Made by a program: the position numbers and the translations under genes
Assembly (NCBI GenBank): GCA_000634115.1
Contig: JFLJ01000156.1
Coordinates: forward strand, 124,001 to 188,000
Length of the DNA: 64,000 nt
DNA from: Prochlorococcus sp. scB241_528O2
GTDB taxonomy: Bacteria; Cyanobacteriota; Cyanobacteriia; PCC-6307; Cyanobiaceae
Reading direction: 5' to 3'
The notes under the pieces: model-generated
Seen by the model: the letters and a program-made list of their open reading frames with translations, nothing else
Told to the model about the DNA's origin: nothing
Database searches by the model: none
Shown here: in pieces, positions 40,751 through 47,127 of the stretch
Layout: each line of letters begins with the position of its first letter
Numbering within the stretch: the stretch's first letter is position 1

Positions 40751-40824
<74 letters not shown>

Positions 40825-40862: not shown

Positions 40863-41238
40863 GAAAGCAGGAGAGGCAATCGCAAAAAAGTTTTATTTTG
40901 TTTCCAAAATAAAACTTTTTTGAGGAAAGTCCGGGCTCCCACGTGGTCAGGCTTGCTGGGTAATTCCCAGTGCGGGCAACCGTGAGGATAGTGCCACAGA
41001 AACATACCGCCTAATACTTTATGTATGGCAAGGGTGCAATGGTGCGGTAAGAGCGCACCAGCAACATTGAGAAGTGTTGGCTAGGTAAACCCCGGCTGGG
41101 AGCAAGGCTTAGTAGATTTATGACCATTACACAATCTACTTCCAAGCGCCGCTTGAGACTGTGAAGTAATTCCAGCCCTAGATAGATGATTGCCCATCTT
41201 TTTAAAGATGAACAGAACCCGGCTTATGACCTGCTTTC
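40863..41238 (+). ncRNA. rnpB: RNase P RNA (type A, cyanobacterial)
   Basis: Catalytic RNA that trims tRNA 5' leaders. The ends pair (GAAAGCAGG at 40863-40871 with CCTGCTTTC at 41230-41238). Conserved core blocks are present in order: GAGGAAAGTCCGGGCTCC (from 40922), CCACAGAAA, GGGTGCAA, GTAAGAGCGCACC, GGTAAACCCCG, GGGAGCAAGG, TAGATAGATGATTGCC and ACAGAACCCGGCTTA near the 3' end. The P3-region hairpin is a perfect 17-base stem (40884-40900 with 40905-40921, plus one flanking C-G pair) around loop TTTC. rnc starts 25 bases after the RNA end. Confidence 0.96.
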
Positions 41239-41263
41239 TAATTGTTGTGATTATTTAAATCAT

Positions 41264-42226: not shown

Positions 42227-42766
42227 ATGATAAATAAAAATGAATGGTTGATTGTTGGATTAATAACATCATGTCATGGAATTAACGGCCAAGTAAAGGT
42301 TAAATCTCTAAGTGATTTCGAAGAAAGATTTTTAAAGCCGGGAATAAGATGGTTGCAAAAAGAAAATGAACCCCCTTCAAAAATAGAACTTACCTCTGGC
42401 TACAAACAACCAGGGAAAGAAACCTTCATCATTAAGTTAGAAGGAAGAAATACTAGAAATGATGCAGAGCTGCTTAAAAATTATAAAATTCTTGTAAAAA
42501 CAAATAATCTTCCTAAATTAAAAAAAGAAGAATTTCACTTGTTGGAACTTATAAATTTGCAAGTCAAGACTTTAGAAAATGATGAATTAAAAATAATTGG
42601 AAAAGTTCTTGACTTGGAAAATGAAAAGAATAATTTACTTATTATTGAACTATTGAAAAATCAAAAGAAAGTTCTCATACCCTTTGTTAAAGAAATAGTG
42701 CCAGTAGTTGATATAAAAAATAATTTTCTTATCATCGATCCCCCAAAGGGGCTTCTAGAACTATAA
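42227..42766 (+). CDS. rimM: Ribosome maturation factor RimM
   Basis: Assists maturation of the 30S head by binding S19. The 179-residue protein has the N-terminal RimM domain ([29 protein letters not shown]), [22 protein letters not shown], and a C-terminal PRC-barrel ([20 protein letters not shown]). It ends with DPPKGLLEL, as usual. Length is standard. After it comes a 138-base AT-rich gap and then the restriction-modification cassette, so rimM marks its left border. Confidence 0.94.
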
Positions 42767-42904
42767 ATATCTCGATAAAAAATTAAAATTTTCTATAAAG
42801 TTAAAGTACCAAGACAAATTAAAAGTAAATTTTATATGTTGTTTTTTTATTAGACGTTATATTTAAAACACTTAATTTTTTATGTAAGGTCTAAGCAAAT
42901 AATT

Positions 42905-44113
42905 ATGAAAAGATCGTCAGAAAAACGACCTTCTGTTGTTGGACTATTTTCTGGATGCGGAGGATTAGATTTAGGTTTTAAGAATGCTGGTTTTGATATC
43001 TTATGGGCAAATGATTTTAATGCTGATTCCGTAAAGACTTATGCAAGAAATATTGGCGATCATATAGTTCTAGGGGACATTACAAAAATACCAAGTAAGG
43101 AAATACCATCAAACTTTGACGTACTTTTAGGCGGATTTCCTTGTCAAGGTTTTTCTGTCGCAAATACTAAGAGAAGCATGAAAGATGAGAGAAATTATTT
43201 ATATCTAGAGATGTTAAGAATTCTCAAGGATAAAAAACCAAAGTTTTTTGTTGCGGAGAATGTAAAAGGTCTTCTTTCTTTAGAAAAAGGAAACGTCATT
43301 GAGATGATTTTGAGGGATTTTGAAAATATAGGGTACAAGGTTGACTACAGACTTTTAATGGCGAGTGATTATGGAATTCCCCAACACAGAGAAAGAGTAT
43401 TTATTATTGGTAACAGAATAGGTAAAGAAAATCCCTTTCCTAAATACAGTCATGGCCTTAAGAATGACTTATTTAACCCCATATTGGAACCTTACGTATC
43501 AACAAAAGAAGTACTTGAACACCTAGCGAACGTAAGAACAAGGGACAATCCTTTTAAGTTAGGCAAAAGAACTATTTATAATCATGTCGCAAGAACCAAT
43601 GTAAGCGATAAGTTTTGGGGAAGAAAACATAAAGTAAATCAATTTGATATTTGTGACTACCTAAAAAAGTGGAGAAAAGATAGTGGCTGGTCAACAAAAA
43701 AAATAGACGAATACTTTGGTTATGCTCATACAGCAGGTCATTGGTTTAGAAAAGATAACAACTCTGGTTGTATTCCAAATCCTGATGATTGGAGGGTTTT
43801 AAAAAAATTATTAAAATTCGATGATACATATGATAAACAAGTTACTGAACTAGAAGAAAAAACTATTGTATTTGAACAATCGTTACGTATTAATAATTGG
43901 GAAGAACCAAGCGATACTATTACAGCTACTGGACCAGAAATTCACCCCAATAGAAAAAGAAGAATGAGTGTAAGAGAATGTGCAATCCTCCAAACCTTTC
44001 CTGATGATTTTATTTTTGAGGGCGCTATCGGAAGTATGTACAAACAAATAGGAAACGCAGTGCCAGTAGATTTAGCACGCAAAATTGGTTGTGCTATAAA
44101 GGAGCAATTATAA
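42905..44113 (+). CDS. DNA (cytosine-5-)-methyltransferase, type II, with internal HTH-like segment
   Basis: A 402-residue enzyme with all main C5-MTase motifs: I GLFSGCGGLDLGF (13-25), IV GGFPCQGFS with catalytic Cys80, VI AENV (117-120), VIII QHRER (160-164), IX RECAILQTFP (357-366) and X GNAVP (383-387). It should therefore be active. The target-recognition region (about 180-345) is long and holds residues 248-280 that read like an Xre-type helix-turn-helix (YLKKWRKDSGW, STKKIDEYFGY, HTAGHWFRKD). I recall a similar insert in other DNA methyltransferases. The recognition sequence cannot be read from the protein. Its stop directly abuts the next gene; base composition is not visibly different from neighbours. 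It may protect the host from the partner nuclease and may regulate the operon. Confidence 0.93.
   Translation: MKRSSEKRPSVVGLFSGCGGLDLGFKNAGFDILWANDFNADSVKTYARNIGDHIVLGDITKIPSKEIPSNFDVLLGGFPCQGFSVANTKRSMKDERNYLYLEMLRILKDKKPKFFVAENVKGLLSLEKGNVIEMILRDFENIGYKVDYRLLMASDYGIPQHRERVFIIGNRIGKENPFPKYSHGLKNDLFNPILEPYVSTKEVLEHLANVRTRDNPFKLGKRTIYNHVARTNVSDKFWGRKHKVNQFDICDYLKKWRKDSGWSTKKIDEYFGYAHTAGHWFRKDNNSGCIPNPDDWRVLKKLLKFDDTYDKQVTELEEKTIVFEQSLRINNWEEPSDTITATGPEIHPNRKRRMSVRECAILQTFPDDFIFEGAIGSMYKQIGNAVPVDLARKIGCAIKEQL
44098..44104 (+). promoter_or_regulatory. Shine-Dalgarno site for the putative endonuclease gene
   Basis: AAAGGAG lies inside the last codons of the methyltransferase gene, 9 bases before the ATG at 44114. 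It is a better match to the anti-SD than most starts in this window. It would let ribosomes initiate the second gene independently or by coupling. Confidence 0.6.
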
Positions 44114-45109
44114 ATGGCGAATAAAGAAGTAATAGTGGAGGCAAAGGGACAAGATAATACAATTATTATTGAAAAAAATTCAAACCACGATGTCATTCTA
44201 AATTTAGAAAGATATTATTTTTGTGAACTAGAAAAAATATTCAAATCACAAGATTTCATTGACAATCTTCTGACAATGCAAGAATGGATAACTGTCAATT
44301 ACCCAAACATGGCATCATATGGCAAAGCAAATAAATGTCAGTTAGCTTGCCAACGTTTAATTAATTATGCTGTATTGAAGAATCTTAAAGAGATTACTGG
44401 GGTATACAACTCAGCTATTAGTTCTGATATTGCATATGAAACAAATAATGCAATTGTTAATATTGACTCCAAAACCGTCTCAAGCACTGGAAACAAAAAC
44501 GATTTTGAATCATTATTTTTTGGACCTAATCAATCCAGTTTTAAAAATAAAAATATTGGAGTTTCTGGAAATAACTATCCAGGTCTTCCTGTAAATTTTC
44601 AAATGCCAAGTATAGATATTCTAAATAAAAAACCAGTTTTAACTTTCTTTTTGATGCTCAAGTACACCGATAATGGGGAAAAGTTCGATTGGTATTCCCG
44701 TCAAGATAAACCAAATGCGAGATTTATATGTATACCCAATGGGGAACTATCATATTTATTCAAAAATGAGATCATCTCGAATGTCAAAACATATGAATAT
44801 GGAACGGAGTTAAATAAAAATAACAAAAAAGTTGCCAAAACTCTTCCACTTTCTAAAGACTTCAATGATGGGAACTTTATTCCAATAAAAGTTCAAACAA
44901 AAAAAGGGTTTTATAATCTAATTACCAAAGAAACTTGGTTAGAGACTGATATTAAAGGTGGCAAAATATATAAACAAGCAATAAGCACTCACTCATGCAG
45001 AATAGATTTTTTTACTTTAAAAGATAGATATGATTCAAATCAAACATACTGGAAGGGTGTATCAAGTTGGAATATTTTTGATCAAAACCCTTCTAATAAA
45101 TTTTACTAG
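44114..45109 (+). CDS. Putative type II restriction endonuclease partner (PD-(D/E)xK-like)
   Basis: A 331-residue protein whose family I do not recognise. Evidence for a nuclease: residues 104-120 read SDIAYETNNAIVNIDSK. This gives Asp105 followed by Asp118-x-Lys120 at the end of a hydrophobic strand, the spacing and context of a PD-(D/E)xK active site. Position also supports it: it starts on the base after the methyltransferase stop with its own Shine-Dalgarno sequence, as in many two-gene type II systems. The remainder has no membrane segment or helicase/ATPase motif, so a type I or III subunit is unlikely. Cleavage specificity should match the methyltransferase. Alternatives are an unrelated cassette gene or an inactive remnant. 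Confidence 0.65.
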   Translation: MANKEVIVEAKGQDNTIIIEKNSNHDVILNLERYYFCELEKIFKSQDFIDNLLTMQEWITVNYPNMASYGKANKCQLACQRLINYAVLKNLKEITGVYNSAISSDIAYETNNAIVNIDSKTVSSTGNKNDFESLFFGPNQSSFKNKNIGVSGNNYPGLPVNFQMPSIDILNKKPVLTFFLMLKYTDNGEKFDWYSRQDKPNARFICIPNGELSYLFKNEIISNVKTYEYGTELNKNNKKVAKTLPLSKDFNDGNFIPIKVQTKKGFYNLITKETWLETDIKGGKIYKQAISTHSCRIDFFTLKDRYDSNQTYWKGVSSWNIFDQNPSNKFY

Positions 45110-45151
45110 GGTAAAAGTTAAATTGACTAATGATTTTCCGTTATTTGAATA

Positions 45152-47047
45152 TTATTCTACAGTAACACTTTTAGCTAAATTTCTTGGTTGATCTACATCA
45201 AGTCCTCTATGAGCTGCGATATGGTAACTCAATAATTGCAAAGGAATTATGTTAAGTAAAGGTGAAATCCATTCATTGGAGGAAGGAACTTTCATTAAAT
45301 AATCAAAGATTTCTGTGCCATTACATTCAGGAGCTATCCCAATCAAATATGAATCTCTAGCTTTTGCTTCTTGTGCATTACTAATAACTTTATCAAAAAC
45401 TTCACCAGGAGAAGCTATAGAAATTACAGGTACTTTTTTATCTAACAATGCTATTGGCCCATGTTTCATTTCACCAGCTGGATATCCTGCGGCGTGAATA
45501 TAACTAATTTCTTTTAGTTTTAATGCTCCTTCAAGAGCAATGGGATAATTTATACCTCTTCCTAAAAAAATAACATCTTTAATATTAAAAAAGTCATGTG
45601 CAAGCTTTTCTGAGGATTGATCATGTTTTTCTAGAAGATCATCAAGTAAGGGAGGCAGTTTTATAAGTTCTTTTATTAATTTTTCTATTTCATCAGTACT
45701 TTGACTACCTTTAATCTGCGCAAAGTGTATAGCTAATCCATAAAAAGAAAGTAATTGTGCAAAAAAAGTTTTTGTTGCAGCAACTCCAACTTCTATCCCT
45801 GCACAAATATCGATTATGTTTGAAACTTGCCTTCCTATAGAGCTCTCTCTTCTATTGGTTATTGCAATAAGATTAGGTCTAAATTTTTCATCTTTAATTA
45901 CGGACCTCCGTTTGATTTCCATATCAATAGCTGCAATAGTATCAGCAGTTTCTCCAGATTGAGAAACTCCAATTGTTAATGTATTCGGTAGTAGTGGAGG
46001 TGGTGAGTAACGAAATTCGCTAGCATAAAAAACATTTGTAGGAATGCCTGAGAATTGCTCTAATAAAAAGCTACCCACCATGGCAGCGTGCTTACTTGTT
46101 CCACAAGCAATAATTTCAATTCTCTCGATTGAGTCAAAAAACTTTGTATCAAAGGGGTAGTTGATTTGATATTGACCATTTTCTGAATTTTGTATTAAAT
46201 AATTTTTCAACCAATTTTTTGCAGTTTCCGGCTGATCGTATATCTCTTTTAACATGAAATGTTTGAAATTCATCTTATCAATTATTTGCTCTGAGACTTT
46301 TAAGGAAACAGGATTTCGATATTGTCTTTCGTTGTTTGAGTCATATATTTCTATCCCGAGAGGGGTTAATAAAGCTATTTCCTCATCCTCCATAGGCAAA
46401 ATAATATTTGTAAAGTTTGCAATAGCTGGAGTATCACTTGCACAAATAATTTCTCCTTCACCCAAACCAATAATCAAAGGTGCCTGTTTTCTTGCAACTA
46501 CCAGAGAGGTTGGGGCGCCAGTCCATAAAACTGCCAAAGCATAAGATCCTTCTAAATCAGATATTACATTTCTAACAGCTACTAATAATGTTGAACCGTT
46601 ATTCTCAAGTTTCAATTGACTTAATGTATTTAATTCTTTTTGAATTAAATGAGGAATTACCTCCGTGTCTGTATCAGAATTAAAATTTATACCCTCTTTC
46701 TCTAATTTGATTTTTAAATCTTGAAAATTCTCAATAATACCATTCTGAACAACTGCTATTGCTCCTGAACTATCAGTATGAGGATGGGCATTTTTAACTT
46801 CAGGTTTCCCATGAGTAGCCCAACGAGTATGAGCTATACCAACAGTTCCTGGAATATCCTTTTCATTAAGATTAATTCTTAAATTCTTAAGTTTTCCCTC
46901 TGCTTTGTTACAGGTAATAGAATTTGTTTCGGGATTAATTACAGCAATACCAGCAGAATCATATCCTCTATATTCAAGTTTTTCTAAACCATTCATTAAT
47001 AATGGTAAAGCTTTTTTATAACCAGTTACAGCAACTATTCCACACAT
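45152..47047 (-). CDS. glmS: Glutamine-fructose-6-phosphate aminotransferase (isomerizing)
   Basis: Makes glucosamine 6-phosphate for peptidoglycan and lipopolysaccharide. The start is placed so the product begins MCGIVAVTG: Cys2 must become the N-terminal nucleophile after Met removal, which excludes the frame start 6 codons upstream. The resulting 631 residues contain the glutaminase domain (YRGYDSAGIAV, THGKPE) and two SIS sugar-isomerase domains (ACGTSKHAAM, SQSGETADT, GRGINYPIALEGALKLKE). They end with the family's PRNLAKSVTVE. No glmS ribozyme is expected here or seen. Right border of the restriction-modification cassette. Confidence 0.96.
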   Translation of the reverse strand: MCGIVAVTGYKKALPLLMNGLEKLEYRGYDSAGIAVINPETNSITCNKAEGKLKNLRINLNEKDIPGTVGIAHTRWATHGKPEVKNAHPHTDSSGAIAVVQNGIIENFQDLKIKLEKEGINFNSDTDTEVIPHLIQKELNTLSQLKLENNGSTLLVAVRNVISDLEGSYALAVLWTGAPTSLVVARKQAPLIIGLGEGEIICASDTPAIANFTNIILPMEDEEIALLTPLGIEIYDSNNERQYRNPVSLKVSEQIIDKMNFKHFMLKEIYDQPETAKNWLKNYLIQNSENGQYQINYPFDTKFFDSIERIEIIACGTSKHAAMVGSFLLEQFSGIPTNVFYASEFRYSPPPLLPNTLTIGVSQSGETADTIAAIDMEIKRRSVIKDEKFRPNLIAITNRRESSIGRQVSNIIDICAGIEVGVAATKTFFAQLLSFYGLAIHFAQIKGSQSTDEIEKLIKELIKLPPLLDDLLEKHDQSSEKLAHDFFNIKDVIFLGRGINYPIALEGALKLKEISYIHAAGYPAGEMKHGPIALLDKKVPVISIASPGEVFDKVISNAQEAKARDSYLIGIAPECNGTEIFDYLMKVPSSNEWISPLLNIIPLQLLSYHIAAHRGLDVDQPRNLAKSVTVE

Positions 47048-47127
47048 ACAATAATTTTTTTTCAATTATATTGAAAAAAAAAGAGTATTTATAAAATCAT
47101 GGACTGTCTTAAAACTGCACTATAAAT

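Follow-up and report, generated by a model that had tools for sequence, protein, structure and literature searches.

A Prochlorococcus restriction-modification locus whose methyltransferase has probably stayed while its nuclease was exchanged

Type II restriction-modification (RM) pairs are usually viewed as co-inherited units with matching specificities, and a locus in Prochlorococcus sp. scB241_528O2 raises the question of whether one half of such a pair can persist while the other is replaced. The locus lies in a 64,000-nucleotide stretch of contig JFLJ01000156.1 (assembly GCA_000634115.1, positions 124,001 to 188,000, forward strand), hereafter the window, whose genome is called G000; it consists of the gene of a C5-cytosine DNA methyltransferase (MTase), P0001, and the gene of a predicted restriction endonuclease, P0002. 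Three other genomes of the genus, G002, G173 and G195, carry the same MTase. We think it likely that this is a two-gene type II RM system whose MTase stays while its nuclease is exchanged. The parts of the locus on which the argument turns are as follows (window coordinates):

42227..42766, plus strand: rimM, the left flank
42767..42904, plus strand: leader from rimM to the MTase gene, alike in G002 and G173 and unlike the empty sites
42905..44113, plus strand: P0001, C5-cytosine DNA MTase of 402 amino acids (aa), the constant component, assigned by Pfam, NCBIfam and Protein Data Bank (PDB) comparison
44114..45109, plus strand: P0002, predicted BglI/SfiI-fold PD-(D/E)xK restriction endonuclease of 331 aa, the exchanged component
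45110..45151, no strand: spacer from the nuclease stop to the glmS stop, variable among alleles
45152..47065, minus strand: glmS, the right flank

The MTases of G002, G173 and G195 are 96%, 95% and 94% identical to P0001, respectively (the G195 protein is partial, 315 aa), while the proteins encoded behind them fall into different types. The nuclease position of G002 is filled by the 267-aa P0003, which matches P0002 at 26% over 195 columns (BLASTP), and that of G173 by a 270-aa nuclease 78–79% identical to P0003; G195 has a third type, the 372-aa P0006, so the types measure 267–270, 331 and 372 aa. Between types the four carriers show MTase identities of 0.94–0.96 and nuclease identities of 0.24–0.34, the latter shifting with the alignment used (0.24–0.34 in the pair comparison described below, 0.26–0.36 pairwise). 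In a DNA alignment of the window with G002, similarity is high through the end of rimM, the leader and the MTase gene, collapses at the MTase end and resumes at the 3' end of glmS. The leader is part of the inserted segment, and since the spacer varies among alleles the right-hand breakpoint lies there or close by. On this evidence the breakpoints of an exchange would lie close to two stop codons, that of the MTase gene and that of glmS. A search for a target-site duplication, made with repeats of at least 14 nucleotides (nt) over 42700–45260, found no terminal repeat around the cassette.

The trees of the two proteins differ accordingly. The MTase tree, of 27 rows, unites all four carriers in a single clade (support 98/96) in which the window and G002 are sisters (98/91), and an 86% identical MTase from a viral contig (L070) and that of a SAR86 genome (L036) fall outside it. 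In the nuclease tree (38 rows, from which 5 of the 36 genome loci described below were omitted for short open reading frames (ORFs)), the window nuclease groups with those of the viral contigs L071, L151 and L152 (100/100), and the nucleases of G002 and G173 group with that of SAR86 L036 (97/98). The approximately unbiased test rejects a tree in which the nucleases of all four carriers stand together (p-AU 8.75e-5), and also one that unites those of the window, G002 and G173 (p-AU 0.0011).

Synonymous divergence (dS) separates the two genes in the same way. Between the window and G002 it is 0.33 for the MTase, 0.40 for rnc, 0.21 for rimM, 0.29 for glmS, 0.24 for psaC, 0.13 for acpP and 0.29 for fabF; in some carrier pairs rnc reaches 0.57 and psaC 0.61. 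Between nuclease types dS is ~1.5–1.7, near saturation. Within the one type that two carriers have in common, G002 versus G173, the nuclease has a nonsynonymous divergence (dN) of 0.137 and a dS of 0.373, and the MTase a dN of 0.021 and a dS of 0.443; the higher nuclease dN shows that the nuclease changes faster even within a type. Judged from these comparisons, the MTase has diverged roughly like its flanks and behaves approximately as an old resident would. A preliminary description of this DNA had taken the cassette as a whole to be either long resident or derived from another AT-rich genome; the answer instead differs by gene, residence fitting the MTase approximately and the nuclease varying among carriers. 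The composition like that of its neighbours, on which that statement was based, was found again (28–35% GC in 500-base windows over the pair), as were the flanks rimM and glmS and the gapless arrangement of the two plus-strand ORFs, the ATG of P0002 starting right behind the P0001 stop codon.

The pair is not part of the Prochlorococcus core. At an expectation value (E) of 1e-50 or below the MTase occurs in 4 of 266 genus genomes (the window genome, G002, G173 and G195) and in 1 of the 87 that are at least 90% complete; in an even draw of 251 family genomes the window alone matched, and G002, G173 and G195 were not among the matches. Single absences weigh little because many genus genomes are incomplete. 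A sample of 20 non-carriers was picked for high rimM identity and contig room from a pool of 202 genomes with a rimM match (of 259), and all 20 have a rimM-glmS gap of 28–42 bp, compared with ~2.4 kb in the window. The junction being closed in non-carriers, the pair is an accessory insertion there, and the preliminary description's expectation that it is not a core cassette holds. The same description called the genus poor in RM systems, which is supported in one respect: PMC8262939 gives 0 to 1 RM system as typical of a Prochlorococcus genome, with many having none. A count that speaks against it is that of C5-MTase matches of any kind (E ≤ 0.001), at least one of which is present in 21 of the 71 genus genomes sampled. 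Outside the window and G002 the best of these are ~34–48% identical to P0001, so that Prochlorococcus has further cytosine MTases.

P0001 is placed by its sequence. It matches Pfam PF00145 at E 6.8e-86 (289.1 bits, cut-off 22) and NCBIfam dcm (TIGR00675) at E 1.6e-77 (261.4 bits, cut-off 100.65), its nearest solved structure is M.HaeIII (E 3.2e-56), and five stretches that we take to be the C5 landmarks are legible in it: FSGCGG, GFPCQG, AENVKG, QHRERV and GNAVP. It is thus the motif-complete C5-cytosine MTase that had been proposed. One part of it is of wider distribution:

43637..43846, plus strand: HTAGHWF-type module within the MTase (~residues 245–314, bounds set by eye)

This module, TKKIDEYFGYxHTAGHWFRKD...DWxxLKxxLxFDD, is common to P0001 and to an MTase of the N4/N6 type whose partner nuclease belongs to the P0002 family (BLASTP E 5e-19 with the Picrophilus plasmid MTase). 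It was also seen at L023:4722-6017, so that it is present in C5 and N4/N6-type MTases that partner one nuclease family; this suggests, from sequence, a common role in target recognition across two chemistries.

P0002 is harder to place. Neither Pfam nor NCBIfam matches it with E as high as 1 allowed, PHROGs yields nothing below E 0.006, and its one profile match is weak (PADLOC REase_II PDLC03522, E 2.7e-5, residues 102–145). Against the PDB a sequence profile of six sequences matched nothing and one of 29 brought up BglI at E 0.14, so the fold claim is carried by the structural search. An AlphaFold model built from the 29-member family alignment has most ten-residue blocks from 21 to 240 at a predicted local distance difference test (pLDDT) score between 67 and 90 (lowest 54). 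Foldseek places this model next to BglI (1dmu, E 3.3e-6) and SfiI (2ezv, E 5.1e-5), the next entry being at 0.14, and VIA-align gives a Z of 15.5 with SfiI (205 residues, root-mean-square deviation (rmsd) 3.8) and 14.4 with BglI (198 residues, rmsd 3.6). The entries that follow, R.SwaI (Z 8.3) and EcoRV (Z up to 7.5), we read as reflecting the common nuclease core of the model. On this moderate-confidence model P0002 is a BglI/SfiI-fold PD-(D/E)xK nuclease with the following catalytic site:

44426..44473, plus strand: predicted active site D105 ... D118-x-K120 of P0002, from residue conservation

D118 and K120 are kept in all 38 aligned family members and D105 in 37, and the core signature R81, D118-x-K120, N127, N139-Q140, S142 and P208 is retained in 37 or 38 of them. 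The plausible PD-(D/E)xK motif noted in the preliminary description is located within a predicted SfiI/BglI-like fold, and by this fold and its conserved putative catalytic residues the protein is a predicted nuclease rather than a member of some non-nuclease family. Two features of a type II RM system are present at the locus: an MTase gene adjoins the nuclease gene, and the latter belongs to a restriction-nuclease family, as judged from the predicted fold, the DxK residues and PDLC03522. A third, cleavage of a specific site that the MTase protects, is presumed.

What nuclease does this MTase usually accompany? When genome_contigs was scanned by patterns from an alignment of P0003-type nucleases, a procedure that misses relatives lacking the patterns, 36 loci in many phyla came up. 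At 28 of them (2 being the Prochlorococcus loci) there is a P0001-type C5 MTase ORF or fragment; 6 have an N4/N6-type MTase and 2 have neither, and one of these remaining loci, L060, has an MTase remnant. The P0001-type MTases outside Prochlorococcus are 57–83% identical to P0001 over their best segment, and such pairs occur in SAR86 (L036), Brachyspira (L046), a Helicobacter cetorum metagenome-assembled genome (L042) and Vagococcus lutrae plasmid pAT03-a, where the pair is convergent and the MTase 64% identical to P0001. By these counts the P0003 type is the usual nuclease partner of the P0001-type MTase across phyla. P0002 is 21–28% identical to P0003-type members (alignment A7). From the partners of the outgroup MTases the P0003 type is the likely ancestral nuclease at the rimM-glmS locus, and most simply two replacements have followed.

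The coupling of the two proteins was examined in 26 complete pairs, 23 ordinary (P0003-type) ones and those of the window, G195 and L071. The ordinary systems are 22 of the 36 genome loci plus L022; omitted were L043, L048, L052, L061, L062 and L063 (short ORFs), L054, L057, L060 and L065–L069 (lacking a C5 MTase ORF), and also L023. In the 253 comparisons among the 23 ordinary systems nuclease identity is never below 0.38 and correlates with MTase identity at 0.50; z values from this comparison are descriptive, the pairs not being independent. Among individual systems, L049 and L058 have an MTase identity of 0.90 and a nuclease identity of 0.55, and L056 and L058 have 0.83 and 0.88, respectively, a discord from which re-pairing may be common.

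The lineage of P0002 itself was found elsewhere, in these searches, only in IMG/VR contigs. As a single query P0002 has no relative in IMG/VR or genome_contigs, phage and plasmid sequences gave nothing even with E of 1 allowed, a search of 99 relatives returned one, the window genome itself, and the Pfam BglI family occurs in 1 of 386 cyanobacterial genomes, a non-carrier (controls 0 of 14). The lineage was reached in IMG/VR with the MTase alignment as bait, which led to L071, and then with an alignment of P0002 and P0013. In L071 an MTase of the same family (63%) and a nuclease of 347 aa are convergent, and the latter is 36% identical to P0002 (212 columns, E 6e-36). The closest branch to the L071 MTase in the tree, as its sister, is the MTase of Christensenella L050 (100/100, identity 0.73), and the L050 nuclease, of the P0003 type, is 0.31 identical to the L071 nuclease; this looks, from sequence, like a second, independent case of nuclease exchange. 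The L071 MTase (L071:2718-4196) has an N-terminal Cro/C1 helix-turn-helix domain (Pfam HTH_26, E 9.2e-17), and the gene adjoining the nuclease (L071:5250-5903) has a product that by eye is DNA glycosylase-like.

Contigs L151 (3887-4741) and L152 (462-1316) have a nuclease of the P0002 lineage, 40% identical to P0002 over 252 aligned residues, between gp44 and a Dam-like MTase gene. By blastn L151 matches 464 phage records, the best being Synechococcus phages, and among the ten matches listed roughly two thirds of the contig is covered; L152, with ORFs that are presumably gp62, RegA and Hsp20, is taken as cyanophage-like by gene order and by a nuclease 97% identical to that of L151. Both contigs are short, with no C5 MTase in the stretch covered, and the P-N-G of the nuclease is P-H-R in them. 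None of the 50,697 phage records searched matches their nuclease, with E of 0.1 as the limit. The other two types gave less: P0003 alone and a six-sequence alignment found no IMG/VR relative, nor did a scan with P0006, whose sole plasmid matches were two P0003-type nucleases. The L070 MTase (L070:4926-6215) has no recognisable nuclease nearby, and by eye its first ~26 residues resemble the start of an N4/N6 MTase, as far as the SP of an SPPYW-like motif, with the C5 MTase fused on behind.

We propose that the system works and has evolved as follows. The MTase, by its family, would methylate cytosine in some site, and the endonuclease, by its fold, residues and partnership, would cut the same site wherever it lacks the methyl group, as phage DNA might. 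A P0001-type MTase, most probably together with a P0003-type nuclease, would have entered the closed rimM-glmS junction in an ancestor of the four sampled Prochlorococcus species. Deeply diverged homologues would since have taken the place of the nuclease, on the simplest count in two events, one giving the window type and the other the G195 type. An incoming nuclease of the same or nested specificity would displace the old one with the cell surviving, exchange being tolerable because the resident MTase would already protect every site. The MTase would thus be a fixed platform and the nucleases interchangeable, and candidate benefits are a changed geometry of cutting or the evasion of phage proteins that inhibit one given nuclease.

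A number of observations weigh against this reading. Only four carriers are at hand and all are drafts (the window genome is 87.9% complete, G002 99%, G173 72% and G195 61%), and the G195 contig begins inside the MTase gene, its left junction lying beyond the edge. Rejection of a G195, G002 and G173 nuclease clade is marginal (p-AU 0.041), and long branches, flagged by the program, meet where the divergent nucleases join. Strict co-descent of the MTase with its flanks is not proven because its dS (0.33–0.63) exceeds that of glmS (0.28–0.36) in all six carrier pairs and that of acpP is lower still (0.08–0.31). The model of P0002 has a mean pLDDT of 62.6, its C-terminal part past ~247 being mostly below 50; P0002 does not match Pfam PF14562 (Endonuc_BglI) at E up to 1, nor do P0006, P0007, P0008 and P0013, the cut-off of 25 bits being passed by P0003 (26.7 bits) and P0005 (36.1), and the PADLOC nuclease match is missing for P0003, P0005, P0006 and P0013. 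Motif avoidance is uninformative in either direction: between 341 kb of two carriers and 380 kb taken from 20 non-carriers, interrupted palindromes differed for many motifs that have nothing to do with one another, and none resembling a BglI or SfiI site was prominent, in a comparison that gene content dominates and whose 20 control regions are mutually orthologous.

The strongest alternative is a sub-case of exchange, in which the three nuclease types have different sites, each of them covered by one shorter site that the MTase methylates; we regard it as unlikely but deserving serious consideration. The BglI recognition site is interrupted. That of SfiI, GGCCN5GGCC (PMC4081073), is interrupted too, and several sites of this kind could be protected by one MTase with a short target; the unequal lengths of the types also fit. 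The core signature retained in 37 or 38 of 38 members favours a similar geometry instead. If the nested sites were real, exchange would alter which DNA is restricted with self-protection constant.

An epigenetic or anti-restriction role of the MTase, with adjoining nucleases that are decaying or non-functional, is improbable. The L070 MTase, without a recognisable nuclease beside it, would fit, and Helicobacter pylori iceA1, beside hpyIM, is mostly mutated (PMC13340068); at the rimM-glmS locus, however, each of the four carriers has an uninterrupted nuclease ORF that retains the D...DxK residues, and a dN/dS of ~0.37 between the G002 and G173 nucleases indicates that they are under constraint.

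Still less probable is that no exchange took place and one ancestral nuclease diverged very fast in Prochlorococcus behind a conserved MTase. The nuclease does evolve faster (dN 0.137 versus 0.021 between G002 and G173), but its types group with different outside lineages (100/100 and 97/98), the clades that this history predicts are rejected (p-AU 8.75e-5 and 0.0011), and dS between types is ~1.5–1.7 against 0.33–0.63 for the MTase. The least probable account, that the differing nucleases are chimeric joins in single-cell or draft assemblies, can point to the 231 contigs of the window genome and the low completeness of G173 and G195, but founders on the presence of a nuclease between MTase and glmS in four separate assemblies (contigs of 189, 152, 48 and 27 kb), on its need for two joins at about the same places that bring in a related nuclease by chance, and on the window nuclease type standing beside the same MTase family in the unrelated contig L071.

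Exchange of the nuclease behind a retained MTase thus remains our preferred explanation, and it can be set beside known systems. The MTase partners of BglI and SfiI are N4-type. The pair in the window resembles BglI/SfiI type II systems in its predicted nuclease fold, its D...DxK active site and its neighbouring MTase, and differs from them in that its partner is a C5 MTase nearest M.HaeIII in the PDB. It shares its MTase family with the P0003-type/C5 MTase pairs and differs in having a nuclease of another lineage, while the cyanophage-like contigs have that nuclease lineage with other neighbours, gp44 and a Dam-like MTase. The H. pylori genes hrgA and iceA2 are not known to encode restriction nucleases. 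At the hpyIIIR/hrgA and iceA1/iceA2 loci of that species, as at ours, the gene that stands in the nuclease's place beside the MTase varies, and passages of PMC4687069 and PMC13340068 do not present hrgA and iceA2 as restriction nucleases. The window locus likewise has the same MTase with a different adjoining gene in close relatives, but here the substitutes are three interchanging nucleases of one family, all with the DxK signature and alignable cores. Isoschizomers as laterally moved, diverged versions of one ancestral enzyme are well known (PMC4081073); in titles and abstract openings from part of the open-access literature, no account of nuclease exchange behind a constant MTase was found, save the Helicobacter iceA and hrgA cases. 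New here is that a nuclease has apparently given way to another member of its own family, one whose lineage is also present in cyanophage-like contigs.

Two further features of the window remain to be recorded:

44099..44104, plus strand: AAGGAG, Shine-Dalgarno-like, in the final MTase codons, 9 nt 5' of the nuclease ATG
40751-40824, minus strand: tRNA-Arg, next to the RNase P RNA gene

Translational coupling of P0001 and P0002 through the AAGGAG may be supposed from its position; the motif is absent from the G002 allele. The RNase P RNA (40863-41242, plus strand; Rfam RF00010, 253.5 bits) coincides with the high-GC patch of the window and holds an 18-nt perfect inverted repeat.

A wider possibility, which we offer tentatively and rather doubt, is that a fixed MTase licenses a pool of interchangeable, deeply diverged and partly phage-borne nucleases, the cutter being renewed with the methylome unchanged, and that phages answer with the MTase alone (L070) or take up the nuclease alone (L151, L152). 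If so, renewal of the cutter could, for example, evade phage inhibitors of one nuclease.

The locus indicates that the two halves of an RM system are separable in nature, the MTase being retained among close relatives whose nucleases are not alike. Such loci would be natural experiments on the entry of a nuclease into a protected genome, on the need to match the old site and on selection in small Prochlorococcus genomes, and one nuclease lineage appears to link host and cyanophage gene pools. The pair also points to a possible barrier to transforming such strains and to the methylase that would protect against it.

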